DNA of 64,000 nucleotides, from the NCBI RefSeq assembly GCF_006738645.1, contig NZ_AP019700.1:2926001-2990000 (forward strand), read 5' to 3'. Below the pieces are notes generated by a model. The model was not told the DNA's origin. It did not search any database and saw nothing but the letters and a program-made list of their open reading frames with translations. Position numbers and translations under genes: made by a program. Below, piece by piece: positions 30,636 to 38,082 of this stretch; the first letter of the stretch is position 1; each line of letters opens with the position of its first letter. This DNA is from Stella humosa. Its GTDB lineage: Bacteria; Pseudomonadota; Alphaproteobacteria; ATCC43930; Allostellaceae.

Positions 30636-31373
30636 CTACATCCGGCGGTGCAGCCGCTGGTCGAGTGCCAGCATCGCGGAATTGACGGCGATGGCGACGC
30701 CCGCGATCAGCAGCGTGACGGCGAAGATCGACTTCACGTCATAGACGTTGACCGCCCGCATGATGAGGAACCCCAGCCCGCGCTGGGAGGCGAACAACTC
30801 GCCGATCAGCGAACCCAGCAGGGTCAGCGAAAAGCCGATGCGGAAGCCCGTCACGATCTCCGGCAACGTGGCCGGGATCAGGATCTTCAGCGCCATCTGG
30901 CTGGGCGACAGGCGCATGGACCGCGCGGCGCGCAGATAGACCGGGTTCAGCGAGCGCACGGCGTTCAGCGTGAAGATGGCGACCGGGATGATGCCATGGA
31001 TGGCGCCAAACGCCACCTTGGCCGACAGGCCCAGGCCGAACATCAGCAGGATGACGGGATAGAGCGTCACCTTGGGGATGGAGTAGATCGCGATCAGGAT
31101 CGGCTCGAACACCAGCCCGGCCGGGCGCCAGCCGCCCAGCACCAGGCCGATCAGCAGCCCGCCGCCCAGCGCGATCGCCAGCGCCTGCGAGAAGGCGGCC
31201 ATCGTCTCCCGGGCATGGCCCCAGAAGTCGGGCGTGCGCATCATCTCGGCCAGGCGGTTGACGGTCTCCGCGGGCGAGGTGACCGCGATCGAGCCGGTGA
31301 TCCAGTGCAGCACCTGCCACACCGCGAAGACGAAAAGCAGCACGCTGCCGATATGGATGAGGCGGTCGCGCAT
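30636..31373 (-). CDS. NitT/TauT-type ABC transporter permease (second subunit)
   Basis: The 245-residue permease has six helices and the EAA loop MRLSPSQMALKILIPATLPEI, typical of SsuC/TauC/ThiX-like permeases. It is the promoter-distal gene of the order SBP-permease-permease; no ATPase gene is adjacent, so the ATP-binding subunit must be encoded elsewhere. Confidence 0.87.
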   Translation of the reverse strand: MRDRLIHIGSVLLFVFAVWQVLHWITGSIAVTSPAETVNRLAEMMRTPDFWGHARETMAAFSQALAIALGGGLLIGLVLGGWRPAGLVFEPILIAIYSIPKVTLYPVILLMFGLGLSAKVAFGAIHGIIPVAIFTLNAVRSLNPVYLRAARSMRLSPSQMALKILIPATLPEIVTGFRIGFSLTLLGSLIGELFASQRGLGFLIMRAVNVYDVKSIFAVTLLIAGVAIAVNSAMLALDQRLHRRM

Positions 31374-31377
31374 TTCC

Positions 31378-32136
31378 CTACCCCCTCGACCGGCGGCGCA
31401 GCAGCCGCTGCTCGTAGCTCCACAGGCTCATGTTCACCGTAGTGACCAGGCCCAGGATGAAGAGCAGCAGGCCGTACATCGTGCGGTTGTCGAAATTGTC
31501 GTAGGCATAGGCGATCTGGTGGCCGATGCCGATGCCGGACAGGATGAACTCGCCGGCGATGACGCCGATGAAGGAATAGGCGACCGACAGCTTGATGCCG
31601 GTGAAGAGGTAAGGCGCCGTCGACGGCAGCACGATGTACCAGGCCGTCTGCACCGGCCCAAGTCGGTTGGTCCGCGCCACCTTGATCAGCACCCGGGGGA
31701 TGCGGTCCAGGCCATTCATGGTGTTGATGATCATGGCCACGACGGCGAAGAGGAAGCCCAGGATCACCAGCGGCACCCGCGTCATGCCGAACAACACGAT
31801 GAAGATCGGATAGAAGACGAAGTGAGGCACGGCGTAGTAGGCCGCGAACAGGGGGTCCATCAGCCGCCTGAGCGGCGGCAGCCGGTGGAGGATGACGCCC
31901 GCCACGAAGCCGACGGAAACGGCCGAGCACAGGGCAGCCGCCACGGTCAGCAGCGTCGCCTGGATGTCGTGGTTCATCCGCCCGGTCGACAGGATGTCGA
32001 CCAGCGAGGTCACCATCTCCGATGGCGGGATCAGGGTCTGGCGCTTGACGTAGCCCAGGCGCGCGATCGCCTCCAGCCAGCCAAAGAATGCCACCACGAT
32101 CCCGAGGCGAATCCAGCCATAGCGGGTCATCGTCAC
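31378..32136 (-). CDS. NitT/TauT-type ABC transporter permease (first subunit)
   Basis: The 252-residue membrane protein has six hydrophobic segments and the conserved VAYSFIGVIAGEFILSGIGIG block of this family. It is 4 bp upstream of the second permease gene and 58 bp downstream of the binding-protein gene, with a hairpin in that gap. Confidence 0.87.
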   Translation of the reverse strand: MTMTRYGWIRLGIVVAFFGWLEAIARLGYVKRQTLIPPSEMVTSLVDILSTGRMNHDIQATLLTVAAALCSAVSVGFVAGVILHRLPPLRRLMDPLFAAYYAVPHFVFYPIFIVLFGMTRVPLVILGFLFAVVAMIINTMNGLDRIPRVLIKVARTNRLGPVQTAWYIVLPSTAPYLFTGIKLSVAYSFIGVIAGEFILSGIGIGHQIAYAYDNFDNRTMYGLLLFILGLVTTVNMSLWSYEQRLLRRRSRG

Positions 32137-32194: not shown

Positions 32195-33175
32195 TCAGCT
32201 ACGCAGGTCGGCCGGCAGCAGCGAGCGGTCGATCAGCTTGTTCCAGTCGGGATCGCCCTTGATCGCATCGACCAGCTTCAGGCCCTTCACCATCTCGTTC
32301 ATCGAGGCGACATCGAGCGAGCCCGCGCCCCAGAACTTGGTGGCGGCCATGTTCTTGACGGCGTTGATGGCGATCTTCTCGTCCAGGTCATAGGCCTTGG
32401 ACAGGATCTTCCCGGCCTCTTCCTGGTTGGCATAGAGCCAGTCGACCGCCTTGGCCCGGCCGATGATGAGCGCGGCCAGCTTCTTGGGCTCCTTCTTCAG
32501 GAACTCGGGCGTGGTCACGCCGACCGTCTGCGTCACCGGCGGCAGGATTTCGGACGCCGCGAAGGCGACGCGGTACTTGCCGGCGTAGATCGAGACCTGC
32601 GGCTCGCTCGCCAGCGTGGCGTCGACGCCGCCGCTCTCCAGGGCCGTGAACCCCGCGCCGATCGCCCCGGTGGAGATGAGCTGCACCTTGTCCCGGGGGA
32701 TGTTCAGCTTGTCCATGATCATGAACATGGTCGTCTGGCTGACCGAGCGCGGGCTGGTGTAGCCGATGCGCTTGCCCTCCAGGTCCTTGATCGACTGCAG
32801 CGGCGAATCGAGCTTGGCCATCCAGACGTTGGAATGGGCGACCGTGCCGGCATGGATGATGCGCAGGTCGAAGCCTTCGGCCGCCGCGGCGACCACCGCC
32901 GGCAGGGCAACCTCGCCATAGGGGAAGTCGCTGGCGAAGACGTTGCGCACCGTGGTACCGCCGCCCTTGGACGTCAGGACGCCGGAGACCTCGATCCCCG
33001 CATCCTTGAAGAAACCCTTCTGCATGGCGACCGCATAGGGCAGCCCGTAGAGCTGCGAGCCCCAATGGGTGACCGAAATCTGCACGGCCTGGGCGTGGGC
33101 CCGGGGGGCGACGGCGACGCCCGAAACGGCGGTGACTGCCAGTGCTCCGACAGCCATCGAAATGATCTTGCGCAT
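32195..33175 (-). CDS. NitT/TauT-type ABC substrate-binding protein
   Basis: The 326-residue protein has a Sec signal peptide cleaved after about residue 28 (PRAHA-Q) and a NMT1/SsuA-like domain (THWGSQLYGLPYAVAMQKGF, then GVLTSKGGGTTVRNVF). It should bind a small organic acid, sulfonate or related solute. ATG 33175 follows GGAGG; the frame further upstream is a shadow of the divergent lyase gene. Being divergent from the lyase/LeuCDB-like genes suggests it imports their substrate. Confidence 0.88.
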   Translation of the reverse strand: MRKIISMAVGALAVTAVSGVAVAPRAHAQAVQISVTHWGSQLYGLPYAVAMQKGFFKDAGIEVSGVLTSKGGGTTVRNVFASDFPYGEVALPAVVAAAAEGFDLRIIHAGTVAHSNVWMAKLDSPLQSIKDLEGKRIGYTSPRSVSQTTMFMIMDKLNIPRDKVQLISTGAIGAGFTALESGGVDATLASEPQVSIYAGKYRVAFAASEILPPVTQTVGVTTPEFLKKEPKKLAALIIGRAKAVDWLYANQEEAGKILSKAYDLDEKIAINAVKNMAATKFWGAGSLDVASMNEMVKGLKLVDAIKGDPDWNKLIDRSLLPADLRS

Positions 33176-33198
33176 GGACTCTCCTCCCTGGACCGGCG

Positions 33199-33226
33199 TT
33201 AGAATGACGGCCTCATCAGGTAAAAT
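33199..33226 (+). promoter_or_regulatory. candidate promoter for the lyase-leuCDB-like operon
   Basis: TTAGAA at 33199-33204 and TAAAAT at 33221-33226, 16 bp apart, form the only A+T-rich promoter-like element in the 75-bp divergent region. A GGAGGG ribosome site follows, 10 bases before ATG 33251. Confidence 0.5.
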
Positions 33227-33250
33227 ATACTCAATGGAGGGAATGAGCCA

Positions 33251-34141
33251 ATGGCTGGACCGAATGGTCGGCGCTCCCTGGCTGCGCGCCTGAAGGACAA
33301 GCGGATCATCGTGGCACCCGGCGTATACGACGCCGTGAGCGCCAGGATTGCCGATCGCATGGGCTTCGAGGCCCTCTACATGACCGGATACGGCACCGTC
33401 GCCTCCCACCTCGGCCTGGCCGATGCGGGCCTCGCCACCTACAGCGAAATGGTGGGTCGCGTCGCGATCATCGCCGAAAACACGACGACCCCGCTGATCG
33501 CCGATGCCGACACCGGCTATGGCGGGCTGCTGAACGTGCGCCGCACCGTGCAGGGCTACGAGGCGGCCGGTGCCGCCGGTATCCAGATCGAAGACCAGGA
33601 GATGCCCAAGAAGTGCGGCCACACGCCGGGCCGTCGCGTCGTCGCGATCGAGGAGATGGTGCAGAAGATCCAGGTCGCCGCCGACGCCCGGCGCCACGAC
33701 GACACCGTCATCATCGCGCGCACGGATGCGCGCACGACGCTCGGCATCGACGAGGCCCTGCGCCGGGGCGAGGCCTATGCCAAGGCCGGCGCCGACGTAC
33801 TCTTCATCGAGTCGCCGGAGACGACCGAGGAGTTGGCGATGATCGGCCGCAGCTTCGACGTGCCGGTGCTGTGCAACGTGGTCAACACGGGTCGCACGCC
33901 GGAGCTGCCGTCCAAGCAGCTAGAGGAACTGGGCTTCGGGATCGCGATCTATCCCGGCATGGCGCTGAAGGCCGCCTCGCAGGCGGTGACGGCGGCCTAT
34001 TCCTACCTGCACGACACCGGCGCCACGCTTGGCATCAACGTGCCGCTGATGGACAGCAAGGATCTCCACGAGCTGATGGGCTTCCCCGACGTATGGGAGT
34101 TCGAGAAGCGGTGGCACACCGGCACGGGTGCCGCGGAATAA
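33251..34141 (+). CDS. isocitrate lyase/PEP mutase-superfamily C-C lyase
   Basis: The 296-residue TIM-barrel protein has [12 protein letters not shown], the Mg-binding ADADTGYGG (residues about 84-92) and the lyase motif KKCGH at residues 120-124 with catalytic C122. These match methylisocitrate lyase and 2,3-dimethylmalate lyase rather than PEP mutase. It would split a 2- or 3-methylmalate-like acid into pyruvate/glyoxylate plus a short acid. It is the first gene of an operon with LeuC-, LeuD- and LeuB-like genes (17-bp gap). Substrate unknown. Confidence 0.85.
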
Positions 34142-34158
34142 TCAGTAAGGAAACGCCG

Positions 34159-35580
34159 ATGACGCCCCCCCTGCCCGCCACCCGCCAGCCTCGGACCATC
34201 ATCGACAAGATCTGGGACGCCCATGTCATCACCGAGCAGAATGGCGAGACGCTGCTCTATGTCGATCGCCACCTGCTGCATGACGGCTCGTTCCATGCCT
34301 TCGACGCGCTGAAGGCCGAGGGCCGCAAGGTAGCGCGCCCGGCCCAGGCGATCGCCATGCCCGACCACTACGTGCCGACCACCGGCCGCCGCTTCGGCAT
34401 TCCCGTCGCCGACTACCGCAACCTGGTGGACGGGCTGGTCGCCAACACGGCCGAGGCCGGCATCACCCATTTCGGCATGGACGACCCACGCCAGGGCATC
34501 GTCCACATCGTCGGCCCCGAGCAGGGCTTCACCCAGCCCGGCATCGTGCTGGTCTGCGGCGACAGCCACACCTCGACCCACGGCGCCATGGGCGCGTTCG
34601 CCTTCGGCATCGGCGCGTCCGAGGTGAAACACGTGTTGGCAACGCAGTCGATCTGGCAGCGCCGGCCCAAGACCATGCGCATCGATGTGACGGGCACCCT
34701 GCCCCAGGGCCTGGGCGGCAAGGACATCATCCTGGCCATCATCGGCCAGATCACGGCCGCGGGCGCCTCAGGCCATGCGGTGGAGTATGCCGGCCCCGCC
34801 ATCCGCGCGCTCTCGATGGAAGGCCGCCTGACTGTCTGCAACATGTCGATCGAAGCCGGCGCCCGCGCCGGCCTGATCGCGCCGGACGACACGACCTTCG
34901 AGTATCTGGCCGGCCGGCCGTACGCCCCCAAGGGCAAGTACTGGGACGCGGCACTGGCGCACTGGCGTAGCCTGCCGACCGACGACGGCGCGCAGTATGC
35001 CCGGACCGTCACCGTCGACGTCTCCAACATCGCGCCGATGCTGACCTGGGGCACCAGCCCCGAGGACGCGCTGCCGATCGACGGCCGGGTGCCCGACCCC
35101 GCCACGCTGGACGATCCCGTCCGGCGTGAGAGCAAGACCAAGGCGCTGGAGTATATGGGCCTGAAGCCGGGCACGCCGCTGTCCGAGATCGAGGTCGATC
35201 GCGTCTTCATCGGCTCGTGCACCAACGGCCGGATCGAGGACCTGCGCGCGGCTGCCGCCGTCGCCCGCGGCCGCAAGGCCAAGGTGCCGGCGCTCGTGGT
35301 CGCCGGCTCCGGCCTGATCAAGGCCCAGGCCGAGGCCGAGGGGCTGGACCGGGTGTTCATCGAGGCCGGCTTCGAGTGGCGGGAGCCCGGCTGCTCGATG
35401 TGCGTGGGCATGAACGGCGACACCATGTCTGCCGGCATGCGCTCGGCCTCCACCTCGAACCGCAACTTCGAGGGCCGCCAGGGCAAGGGTGCCCGCACCC
35501 ACCTGATGAGCCCGTCGATGGCGGCGGCCGCCGCCGTCACCGGCCACTTCACCGATTTCCGCCGCCTGGACCAGGCGTGA
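34159..35580 (+). CDS. aconitase-family hydro-lyase large subunit, LeuC-like
   Basis: The 473-residue protein aligns with isopropylmalate isomerase large subunits: DKIWDAHVI at the start, [10 protein letters not shown], and 4Fe-4S ligands C354 (GSCTNGR), C412 and C415 (PGCSMC). Substrate-side differences include DHYVPT where LeuC usually has DHNVPT, and an altered [14 protein letters not shown] segment, so it may act on another 2- or 3-hydroxy diacid. It is followed by the small subunit after 16 bp. A true leucine-pathway role cannot be excluded. Confidence 0.85.
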
Positions 35581-35596
35581 GCCGGGGAGACGATCC

Positions 35597-36211
35597 ATGG
35601 AAAAGTTCCAGACCATCACCGCCGTCGCCGCCCCGCTGGAGGTCGCCAACTGCGACACCGACCGCATCATCCCCGCTCGCTTCCTGAAGGCCCGGCGCAG
35701 CGAGGGCTACGGCAAGAACCTCTTCCGCGACGTGCGCTATGACCGGGACGGCAATCCTCTGCCGGATTTCCCGCTGAACAAGCCGGCCTACAAGGACGCG
35801 AAGATCCTGGTGGCGGACGTGAACTTCGCGTGCGGCTCGTCGCGGGAGGCCGCCGTCTATGCCCTGCACGACGCCGGCTTCCGTGCCGTCATCGCGCCCA
35901 GCTATGGCGACATCTTCTTCAACAACTGCTTCAAGAACGGCGTGCTGCCGATCGTCCTGCCGGCCGACCAGGTGGCGGCGATCCGCACGGCCCTGGCCGA
36001 GCAGCCGGGCAGCACCCTGACCGTCGACCTGGAGAACCAGACGGTCACCCGCGGCAACGACGTGTGGAGCTTCGAGGTCGACCCGCAGCGCAAGGAATGC
36101 CTGCTGGAGGGCCTGGACGACATCAACCTGACGCTGCAGCACCGCGACGCGATGGGCAGCTTCGAACAGCAGTACCAGGCCGACCGGCCCTGGATGGGAT
36201 CGCCCGCATGA
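35597..36211 (+). CDS. aconitase-family hydro-lyase small subunit, LeuD-like
   Basis: The 204-residue protein has the swivel-domain motifs NCDTDRIIPARFLK near residue 18 and FACGSSREAAVYAL near residue 77, as in LeuD. It completes the isomerase with the upstream large subunit. It overlaps the dehydrogenase gene by ATGA. Confidence 0.87.
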   Translation: MEKFQTITAVAAPLEVANCDTDRIIPARFLKARRSEGYGKNLFRDVRYDRDGNPLPDFPLNKPAYKDAKILVADVNFACGSSREAAVYALHDAGFRAVIAPSYGDIFFNNCFKNGVLPIVLPADQVAAIRTALAEQPGSTLTVDLENQTVTRGNDVWSFEVDPQRKECLLEGLDDINLTLQHRDAMGSFEQQYQADRPWMGSPA

Positions 36212-37311
36212 CGCGCAACGTTCTGATCATCCCCGGCGACGGCATCGGCATCGAGGTGATGGCCGAGGCCCGCCGGATCGTCGAGTGGCTCAACGCCCAT
36301 CGCGGCACCGCCATCACGCTGACCGAAGGCGAGATGGGGACCGAGGTCTGGCGGCGCACGGGCGTGCCCATGTCGGACGAGACGATCGAGGCGGCCAAGT
36401 CGGCGGACGCGGTGCTGTTCGGCGCGGTCGGCGGCGACGAGATCATCCCGCGGCCGATCCGGCGCGCACGCGGCCTGCTGGCGCTCCGCCGGGCCATGGG
36501 GCTCTATGCCAACCTGCGGCCGGTGAAGGCCTACGAGGCGCTGCTTGACGCCACCAGCCTGAAGGAGCGGGTGGCGCGCGGCGTCGACCTCGTCGTCCTG
36601 CGCGAACTGTCGAGCGGGGTCTATTTCGGCGAGCCGCGCTTTACCGAGACGCTGCCCAGCGGCAAGCGTCGCGCCGTCGACACCCAGGTCTATACCGAGG
36701 AGGAGATCGAGCGCATCGCGCGCGACGCCTTCCTGCTCGCCCGCACGCGGCGCGGCCAGGTGGCATCGGTCGAGAAGAGCAACGTCATGGAAACGGGTCG
36801 CCTGTGGCGCGACGTGGTGACGGCGCTGCACGCGGCCGAGTTCCAGGACGTGGCCCTGCGCCACGTGCTATCGGACAACTTCGCCATGCAGATCATCCGC
36901 GACCCGCGGCAGTTCGACGTGGTGGTGACCGACAACCTGTTCGGCGACCTGCTGTCGGACGCCTCGGCCATGATCGCGGGCTCGCTCGGCATGCTGCCGT
37001 CCGCCAGCCTCGGCACCGCCGACGCCAGCGGCCGCCGCCCGGCCCTCTACGAGCCGGTTCACGGCTCGGCCCCGGACATCGCCGGCAAGGGCATCGCCAA
37101 CCCGATCGCGGCCATCCTCAGCGTCGCCATGATGCTGCGGCACTCGTTCGGCCTCACGGCGGATGCCGAACTGGTCGAGAAGGCGGTGGAAGCCGCCCTG
37201 GACGGCGGCGCTCGGACGGCCGACCTCTACGTGCAGGGCGGCATCCAGCCGGTGACGACGGCCGGGATGACGAAGGCGATCATGGAAAAGTTGGAGGCGC
37301 TGGCGGTATGA
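36208..37311 (+). CDS. beta-hydroxyacid oxidative decarboxylase, LeuB-like
   Basis: The 367-residue protein begins LIIPGDGIGIEVM and has NLFGDLLSDASAMIAGSLGM with EPVHGSAPDIAGKGIANP, the marks of isopropylmalate/isocitrate/tartrate dehydrogenases. RELSSGVYFGEPR replaces the usual RELTGGIYFG. It would oxidise and decarboxylate the hydroxy acid made by the LeuCD-like isomerase using NAD. ATG 36208 overlaps the small-subunit stop; the longer frame upstream is a shadow. Confidence 0.86.
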   Translation: MTRNVLIIPGDGIGIEVMAEARRIVEWLNAHRGTAITLTEGEMGTEVWRRTGVPMSDETIEAAKSADAVLFGAVGGDEIIPRPIRRARGLLALRRAMGLYANLRPVKAYEALLDATSLKERVARGVDLVVLRELSSGVYFGEPRFTETLPSGKRRAVDTQVYTEEEIERIARDAFLLARTRRGQVASVEKSNVMETGRLWRDVVTALHAAEFQDVALRHVLSDNFAMQIIRDPRQFDVVVTDNLFGDLLSDASAMIAGSLGMLPSASLGTADASGRRPALYEPVHGSAPDIAGKGIANPIAAILSVAMMLRHSFGLTADAELVEKAVEAALDGGARTADLYVQGGIQPVTTAGMTKAIMEKLEALAV

Positions 37312-37399: not shown

Positions 37400-37657
37400 C
37401 TATTCCTTGGCGGTCAATTCATCGCCTGGATCCGGTGGATTTCCGACACCGGGCCGGCCGAGGATCGCCAGTGCCTTGGGAACATCGGCACGCGCCCCTC
37501 GCTCGGAGAAGAAGCTCTCCGTCCGGAGCGCAGAGAGTTTCTCTGCCACGGCCACGTTGATGAATTGATTGAGCGCAACACCCTCGCTCTCGGCTACTTT
37601 TCGCGCCTCATCGAGCAGAGAGGGTTGAAGACGCAAGGCGAAGTTGCTCTTTCTCAT
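37400..37657 (-). CDS. antitoxin of the ribbon-helix-helix/HicB-like type
   Basis: The 85-residue protein has an N-terminal ribbon-helix-helix pattern (NFALRLQPSLLDEARKVAES, then GVALNQFINVAVAEKL) and a flexible proline-rich C-terminus that could wrap the toxin. It should bind DNA as a dimer and neutralise the PIN toxin. Its ATG overlaps the stop of the toxin gene, so the toxin is encoded first. Confidence 0.82.
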   Translation of the reverse strand: MRKSNFALRLQPSLLDEARKVAESEGVALNQFINVAVAEKLSALRTESFFSERGARADVPKALAILGRPGVGNPPDPGDELTAKE

Positions 37658-38082
37658 TTCGTGGCCTCCAGGCGCTGTGCCGCTTCTGCCGGTCGCAGGA
37701 TCTCCAATCCGAACCGTTGGCCGGCACGCATAAAATCTCGAACATTATAGGTGACTATTGCTGCGGCCCGGCCATTCACCGCGGTCTCCAGCACCATGTC
37801 GTCGTCCGGGTCCGCAAGAGTGGGCCGCCATAGGAACGCGAGCACAACCGGATCCGCGATTGCTCCCACCGCATCGAGCAAGACTTGCGCGTCCTCGACG
37901 GTGATGCGTGCTTTCGCCAAGTGTTCTGGCCGCGTCAGGACGGCCTCGTATTCGAACATCAATAGCACCGATACCAGGATCGTCAGGCGCCTCTCGAGTG
38001 CTGCGACGAGCAATCGACGCGACGCGCCCAGATCGCTCCGGACGGCTGCCACCAGTGTCGACGTATCAAGCACCACTCGCAC
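37654..38082 (-). CDS. PIN-domain toxin (COG1569-like ribonuclease)
   Basis: The 142-residue protein is a PIN-domain nuclease with acidic metal ligands D6 (VVLDTSTL), E44 (MFEYEAVL), D93-D95 (DPDDDMVLE) and D116 (YNVRDF). Such toxins cleave RNA when the antitoxin is lost. The frame opens with GTG at 38082 and has no Shine-Dalgarno sequence. A -10-like TAATCT sits 6 bp upstream, so the message may be leaderless. Lower G+C than the flanks suggests a mobile module. Confidence 0.85.
   Translation of the reverse strand: MRVVLDTSTLVAAVRSDLGASRRLLVAALERRLTILVSVLLMFEYEAVLTRPEHLAKARITVEDAQVLLDAVGAIADPVVLAFLWRPTLADPDDDMVLETAVNGRAAAIVTYNVRDFMRAGQRFGLEILRPAEAAQRLEATK

Follow-up and report, generated by a model that had tools for sequence, protein, structure and literature searches.

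A recurring lyase–LeuC/LeuD gene unit in Stella humosa and its possible role in the uptake and breakdown of alkyl-substituted malates

Stella humosa is a star-shaped soil bacterium. Here we looked at a window of 64,000 nucleotides (positions 2926001-2990000 of the single 5,832,650-base contig of the S. humosa ATCC 43930 genome, G000), in which seven genes are arranged around a 75-base gap (33176..33250). Leftward of the gap, on the reverse strand, are the genes for a periplasmic substrate-binding protein of the NMT1 family (32195..33175; Pfam PF09084, 2.9e-26) and for two ATP-binding cassette (ABC) importer permeases of the BPD_transp_1 family and NitT/TauT type, permease 1 (31378..32136; PF00528, 1.5e-24) and permease 2 (30636..31373; PF00528, 5.6e-22). 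Rightward, on the forward strand, follow the genes for a C-C lyase of the isocitrate lyase (ICL)/PrpB family with a KKCGH catalytic motif (33251..34141; PF13714, 5.9e-49), a LeuC-like hydro-lyase large subunit of a paralogue clade (34159..35580), a LeuD-like hydro-lyase small subunit (35597..36211; PF00694, 4.7e-28) and a LeuB-like beta-decarboxylating dehydrogenase (36208..37311; TIGR00169, 410.6 bits), whose start overlaps the end of the LeuD-like gene by 4 bases. The gap carries promoter-like matches on both strands; in 33100-33300 two sigma-70-like matches were found against a mean of 0.0 in shuffled sequences, by consensus match only, and the pattern is similar in S. vacuolata. The initial annotation, made for 32195-37311, had described a lyase-like gene that heads a LeuC/LeuD/LeuB-like operon and is divergent from an ABC importer, and these genes are indeed found there. 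Of the importer genes, that of the binding protein lies inside the interval and those of the permeases just outside it (30636-32136); no ATPase gene stands beside them, a point that the annotation had not noted.

On balance we lean towards reading the cluster as a dedicated module that takes up and breaks down a small malate or maleate with an alkyl substituent and that copies the layout of the isocitrate node. That a recurring unit exists is well supported, and the isocitrate-node-like scheme has moderate support. Comparison of sequences supports three points: lyase, LeuC and LeuD make up a unit apart from leucine synthesis, the importer belongs with the lyase, and an ATPase encoded elsewhere belongs with the importer.

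The genome holds six aconitase-family matches, and four of these are LeuC-type genes: one beside the ribosomal protein L19 gene, two in further paralogue sets, and the window's own. The first belongs to the canonical leuCDB set (G000:5203971-5207223), and leuA (TIGR00970, 820.5 bits, cut-off 697.4) and the citramalate synthase gene cimA (TIGR00977, 672.4 bits, cut-off 450) also lie outside the window in the same genome. The window therefore does not carry the only leuCDB of S. humosa, a situation that would have pointed to leucine synthesis, and the early remark that no isopropylmalate synthase accompanies the operon holds as well, with 0/6 genomic HMGL-family (synthase-type) matches inside the window. 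Near the canonical leu genes, at about 5198568-5200584 of G000:C1 (L022:569-2585), two neighbouring genes have almost identical starts, either because one was recently duplicated in tandem or because of the assembly.

The proteins of the window are 64% (LeuC), 50% (LeuD) and 56% (LeuB) identical to their canonical Stella counterparts. In a LeuC tree of 114 rows, built by a quick method with Shimodaira–Hasegawa-like approximate likelihood ratio test (SH-aLRT) support and no bootstrap, the LeuC-like protein falls in a paralogue clade of 81 rows, apart from the 33 canonical rows (31 labelled as such, together with L073 and L076), with SH-aLRT 100. The motif differences noted earlier in the LeuC-like (DHYVPT) and LeuB-like (RELSSG) proteins are real when counted over alignment rows. 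The residue that follows the catalytic DH of LeuC is N in 32/33 canonical rows and I in 1/33, and in the 81 paralogue rows it is Y in 70, G in 5, F in 2, A in 2, a gap in 2 and N in none. The LeuD-like protein has REAAVY in place of the REHAPW of canonical LeuD and so lacks the GSSREHAPW signature; HAPW after GSSRE is present in 18/18 of the canonical LeuD proteins found (22 loci were scanned with a pattern that required NFG or NWG upstream, and four gave no match) and in 0/80 paralogues, where the motif is variable. The equivalog models of NCBIfam give another picture. The LeuC-like protein scores 690 bits with TIGR00170 (cut-off 560.25), as do other LeuC paralogues above the same cut-off, so that this model does not split the two clades, and the LeuD-like protein reaches 218.2 bits with TIGR00171 (cut-off 116.25), which points the opposite way to its motif loss. 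Both proteins remain under the cut-offs of the archaeal-type models compared, TIGR02086 for LeuC (292.2 against 410.15 bits) and TIGR02087 for LeuD/DmdB (73.4 against 108.95 bits), which makes the LeuC-like protein one of the bacterial type. Cysteines at E. coli LeuC positions 347, 407 and 410, which bind the 4Fe-4S cluster there, are kept in 114/114 LeuC rows, and for this reason the dehydratase chemistry of the LeuC/LeuD-like pair is probably intact. Leucine synthesis as the function of the operon was thus rejected for LeuC and LeuD on the basis of the canonical genes elsewhere, the LeuC tree and the motifs, and less firmly for LeuB; from these comparisons a separation of the LeuC/LeuD pair from leucine synthesis is supported.

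The LeuB-like dehydrogenase scores above the LeuB cut-off (353.2 bits) of TIGR00169 and retains the GLLALR and YANLRP segments and the remaining motifs compared, and RELTGG is changed to RELSSG in all six Stella-type LeuB rows (four genomes, two of them represented twice). Two positions ahead of GLL the window protein alone has A, where the sister Stella proteins and the canonical LeuB rows seen have E. In a LeuB tree of 42 of 43 rows (L152 was left out as it comes from the same genome as L030), the Stella clade nests on a long stem among alphaproteobacterial LeuB at a fork of 81/93, which is not a starred branch, and because of this nesting the gene probably arose by duplication of a true alphaproteobacterial LeuB. 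The early expectation that the paralogues stand apart from the leucine enzymes is therefore borne out for LeuC and only in part for LeuB. The Stella proteins and the LeuB of locus L053 form one clade (99/98) even though the LeuC proteins that go with them fall into different subgroups; this suggests that one form of LeuB has become specialised for the module. D-malate dehydrogenase was rejected as the identity of this protein at 34% identity to E. coli DmlA.

For the lyase, membership of the ICL/phosphoenolpyruvate (PEP) mutase superfamily is given by the triosephosphate isomerase (TIM)-barrel fold and the K-[KR]-C-G-H loop, here KKCGH at residues 120-124, of which K120, C122, G123 and H124 are invariant across 12 aligned lyases. 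Its specific identity is not named by the models, as it lies below the cut-off of all eight NCBIfam equivalog models matched. On this ground we rejected PrpB proper (TIGR02317, 259.5 against 354.4 bits), PEP mutase (TIGR02320, 133.6 against 319.55 bits) and carboxyPEP mutase (TIGR02319, 214.4 against 420.05 bits). The AlphaFold model of the lyase (predicted local distance difference test, pLDDT, 86.9) matches the folds of 2-methylisocitrate lyase, 2,3-dimethylmalate lyase, petal death protein and oxaloacetate acetylhydrolase (OAH). Since these four types match about equally (template modelling score, TM, about 0.85-0.9), we describe the enzyme as a malate-derivative lyase without a named substrate; fold and sequence suggest that substrate class and do not say which member of it is used.

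It can also be seen from relatives of the cluster that the lyase and the LeuC/LeuD pair recur together. A protein scan of the genome contig collection gave at least 580 confirmed candidates, of which the best-scoring 80 loci were taken, so that the proportions given here are not population frequencies. In 40 of the 80 a lyase gene on the same strand is at most two genes away from LeuC; in 38 of these it directly precedes LeuC and in 2 it lies downstream. These neighbour tables come from a home-made gene caller that may miss or split genes; at L056, for example, it missed LeuC, and this locus is outside the LeuC tree and the lyase-linked count although LeuD-like and lyase genes adjoin there. 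With tblastn a lyase relative was found in 56/80 relative loci (about 5-17 kb long) and in 0/21 canonical LeuC loci (12-18 kb), these controls coming, sampling aside, from the same class only. The LeuC/LeuD paralogue group is tied to lyases across several bacterial orders, and a quick tree with one PrpB as its root divides the paired lyases into several lineages. Locus L075 combines a Stella-type lyase with a LeuC from another subgroup, which argues for repeated pairing of the two genes over passive inheritance.

The neighbouring genes of these loci are of several kinds. Hydantoinase A, hydantoinase B and an isochorismatase-family hydrolase cluster with the lyase in seven loci (L074, L077, L086, L087, L089, L096, and L100), possibly as a way of feeding cyclic imides or amides into acids of this kind. 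A TauD-type dioxygenase cluster is found in three loci, amidohydrolases in others, and in one locus the lyase has an aconitase X gene upstream, the Pfam naming of these neighbour types resting on one member each (L086, L062, and L106). As the neighbour clusters differ in this way, the family probably serves several acids. The seven hydantoinase loci would also suit an imide or maleamate-type funnel into a maleate or citraconate hydratase route. In such a route LeuCD would add water to an imported acid of the maleate type to give one of the D-malate type, LeuB would act in the manner of D-malate dehydrogenase, and the lyase would split (R)-citramalate or malate into acetate and either pyruvate or glyoxylate. 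Hydratases of the LeuCD type that act on maleate exist (HbzIJ). Yet the LeuB-like protein is much further from DmlA than from canonical LeuB (34% against 56% identity), and its GLL segment is of the LeuB type, unlike that of DmlA, and we therefore regard this route as unlikely.

Two other places in the S. humosa genome carry similar genes. At L024 (G000:C1:786000-804000) there is a second neighbourhood of lyase and LeuC/LeuD paralogues, with genes that look, by sequence only, like a dipeptide-type ABC importer and with a GntR/aminotransferase (MocR-type) regulator. A third LeuCDB set, related to sets of the Alcaligenaceae, is found near a nitrile hydratase alpha-chain gene at L023 (G000:C1:3678000-3694000).

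A question that is raised by the importer is how it can be powered, as the window supplies the binding protein and two permeases of a NitT/TauT system. Relatives of these three proteins occur together in 21/80 loci, and all 21 are lyase-linked. In 20 of the 21 a further gene stands between the binding protein and permease 1, the exception being S. vacuolata (L030), which is arranged like the window. When one such inserted gene was used to search the S. humosa genome, a match of 74% was found at G000:33674-34447, the next best being 48%. The partnership is thus deduced from a distant match: this ATPase gene (G000:C1:33674-34447; L206:6675-7451) lies about 2.9 Mb from the importer, and its product is 73-82% identical to the inserted-gene products of 20/20 loci. 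Neither a binding-protein gene nor a permease gene directly adjoins it, and to call it an orphan is an interpretation, as on its 3' side RmuC and one more gene are followed, from about 2.4 kb, by a different and complete importer of the NMT1 type that has an ATPase and a permease of its own. The gene is kept in the Stella genomes G059 (93%) and S. vacuolata (G060, 95%). From these matches the distant ATPase appears to energise the importer of the window, and a dead importer, suggested by the missing adjacent ATPase gene, is less likely. The binding-protein model (pLDDT 84.5) gave a list of 50 solved folds at 10-23% identity, with proteins of the thiamin/pyrimidine, TauA, SsuA and NrtA types whose names point to unlike ligands; with such low identities and unlike ligands, naming a ligand from the fold was dropped.

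The genus Stella offers a natural comparison, with importer and lyase present in S. humosa and S. vacuolata and missing in Stella sp. ATCC 35155 (G058); a fourth genome, G059, is a fragmented assembly. At the syntenic place ATCC 35155 retains LeuC (86% identity), LeuD (80%) and LeuB (85%). It has no lyase orthologue (the best match, 61%, is a different paralogue), no binding-protein match at the threshold used, and no permeases at the syntenic site, which is where these were looked for. The distant ATPase is absent too, its best match being 44%. Because this strain lacks lyase, importer and ATPase and yet keeps LeuCDB, its gene content ties the three together and shows that LeuCDB can stand alone. 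The early proposal of a catabolic module is in this way partly supported: it is strengthened by the linkage of lyase and LeuCD, the importer genes common to several loci, the distant ATPase and the co-loss in ATCC 35155, and it is weakened by the nesting of LeuB among alphaproteobacterial LeuB.

The same strain brings up the option that the genes are a second leuCDB set with a biosynthetic role, which would make branched-chain or secondary-metabolite precursors and have the lyase and importer beside it by chance. The persistence of LeuCDB without either would fit it, as would the scores of all three proteins above the cut-offs of TIGR00170, TIGR00171 and TIGR00169 and the place of LeuB in its tree. 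Chance neighbours are harder to reconcile with a LeuC/LeuD group that is repeatedly lyase-linked in several orders while canonical loci gave 0/21, and no synthase is found in the window; we hold this option to be quite improbable.

A more probable arrangement, to which we return here as the uptake and breakdown module, would work as follows. The NitT-type importer, powered by the ATPase encoded about 2.9 Mb off, would take up the acid. The LeuC/LeuD-like enzyme, as an aconitase-family hydro-lyase, would interconvert 2-alkylmalate, alkylmaleate and (2R,3S)-3-alkylmalate, and the lyase would split the 3-alkylmalate into glyoxylate and an alkanoate in the fashion of isocitrate lyase. In Stella, the LeuB-like dehydrogenase would open a second exit, an oxidative decarboxylation that yields a 2-oxo acid and resembles the isocitrate dehydrogenase reaction. 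The whole would be the isocitrate node with an alkyl group replacing the carboxymethyl group. The kept catalytic features (LeuB-like motifs, LeuC cysteines, and KKCGH of the lyase) count toward it, and the reactions, their direction and the substrate are deduced from gene content. LeuB-type enzymes require a secondary hydroxyl, and lyases of the ICL/PrpB type share the 2R,3S configuration with isopropylmalate isomerase. If LeuB acts on the LeuCD product, this product would be a 3-alkylmalate, from which the lyase would yield glyoxylate and alkanoate. As a LeuB gene is found in just 2/40 lyase-linked loci, cleavage is likely the main exit. For the alkyl group, methyl (citramalate/citraconate) or isopropyl (isopropylmalate) seems likeliest, each being a doubtful guess when taken singly.

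The rarity of LeuB would equally suit a route of the dimethylmalate type, in which LeuCD hydrates a disubstituted maleate, the lyase cleaves a 2,3-dialkylmalate to a 2-oxo acid and an alkanoate, and LeuB serves another substrate. Cleavage of this type is known from nicotinate fermentation, and in sequence and in model the lyase resembles 2,3-dimethylmalate lyase and petal death protein to about the same degree as PrpB. However, a 2,3-dialkylmalate has no C2 hydrogen available for oxidation, and the persistence of LeuCDB without lyase in ATCC 35155 suggests that the LeuCD product feeds LeuB; the LeuC-like protein is also of the bacterial type by TIGR02086. Together these points make the dimethylmalate-type route improbable.

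Several observations weigh against the module with its isocitrate-like scheme. The loci compared were selected by score, as said above, and in 24/80 no lyase match was found by tblastn in the available DNA, many of them with full flanks; these 24 include the canonical LeuC loci L073 and L076 and at least two loci cut by contig ends (L052, L105). The neighbouring genes differ widely and do not point to a single shared substrate. The distant ATPase could be the partner of something else, such as the complete importer near it, and the genome has 32 ATPase matches that are possible stand-ins for it. The co-loss was observed once, within a single genus, and one deletion could have removed the lyase, the binding protein and the permeases together, which leaves just the ATPase as a loss at a distance. 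The descent of LeuB from ordinary LeuB could mean that the Stella LeuCDB makes an amino-acid precursor, and by NCBIfam the proteins would be named LeuC, LeuD and LeuB, with scores above the respective cut-offs.

Known systems resemble the module in part. The glyoxylate shunt and isocitrate node (aconitase, isocitrate lyase, and isocitrate dehydrogenase) draw on the same three enzyme superfamilies and, as we propose for the module, isomerise and then cleave or decarboxylate; the module differs in having an importer and LeuCD-, PrpB/2,3-dimethylmalate lyase- and LeuB-like members, for which an alkylmalate rather than a tricarboxylate is expected. In the 2-methylcitrate cycle (AcnD or PrpD/AcnB, with PrpB) an aconitase-family dehydratase likewise precedes a PrpB-family lyase, whereas in the module LeuCD replaces AcnD/AcnB and the lyase is under the PrpB cut-off; a Pfam scan of the seven cluster genes found no citrate-synthase-type gene. 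DmdAB and 2,3-dimethylmalate lyase of nicotinate fermentation also pair a LeuCD-family hydratase with an ICL-superfamily lyase. DmdA belongs to the archaeal-type LeuC subfamily, unlike the bacterial-type LeuC of the module, which adds a NitT importer and, in Stella, LeuB. Leucine leuCDB has the same LeuC-LeuD-LeuB order and the catalytic motifs compared; the module differs from it by the LeuC clade of its own, the altered LeuC/LeuD motifs, the attached lyase and importer and the lack of leuA in the window.

A bolder and rather doubtful idea is that the lyase is a 3-alkylmalate lyase, which would for example split 3-isopropylmalate into glyoxylate and isovalerate, and that the module is an alkylmalate counterpart of the glyoxylate shunt in several bacterial orders. 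We know of no 3-alkylmalate lyase activity. If the idea is true, soil and water bacteria would consume acids that other organisms release from their leucine and isoleucine pathways, and the Stella dehydrogenase would add a second exit.

In the literature, coenzyme A (CoA)-dependent breakdown of itaconate and citramalate is described for Pseudomonas (PMC9875883; PMC12290011), and the terms leuC and isopropylmalate are absent from the main text of both papers. A 2,3-dimethylmalate lyase of Rhodospirillum is named beside methylcitrate enzymes in PMC8471276. Searches on the module and its chemistry, at the level of titles and starts of abstracts, found no description of it. The recurring lyase–LeuCD unit points to a catabolic route, and the module is real and recurring and probably mis-named: leuC and leuD annotations in such clusters, and here leuB too, probably do not mark leucine genes, and automatic reconstructions may for this reason miscount leucine pathways.

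Just 3' of the LeuB-like gene, at 37400-38082 on the reverse strand, lies a two-gene unit, perhaps a toxin-antitoxin pair: one gene encodes a protein of 85 residues that matches no Pfam family, the other a PIN-domain protein. In S. vacuolata a relative of the gene for the 85-residue protein also adjoins the module.

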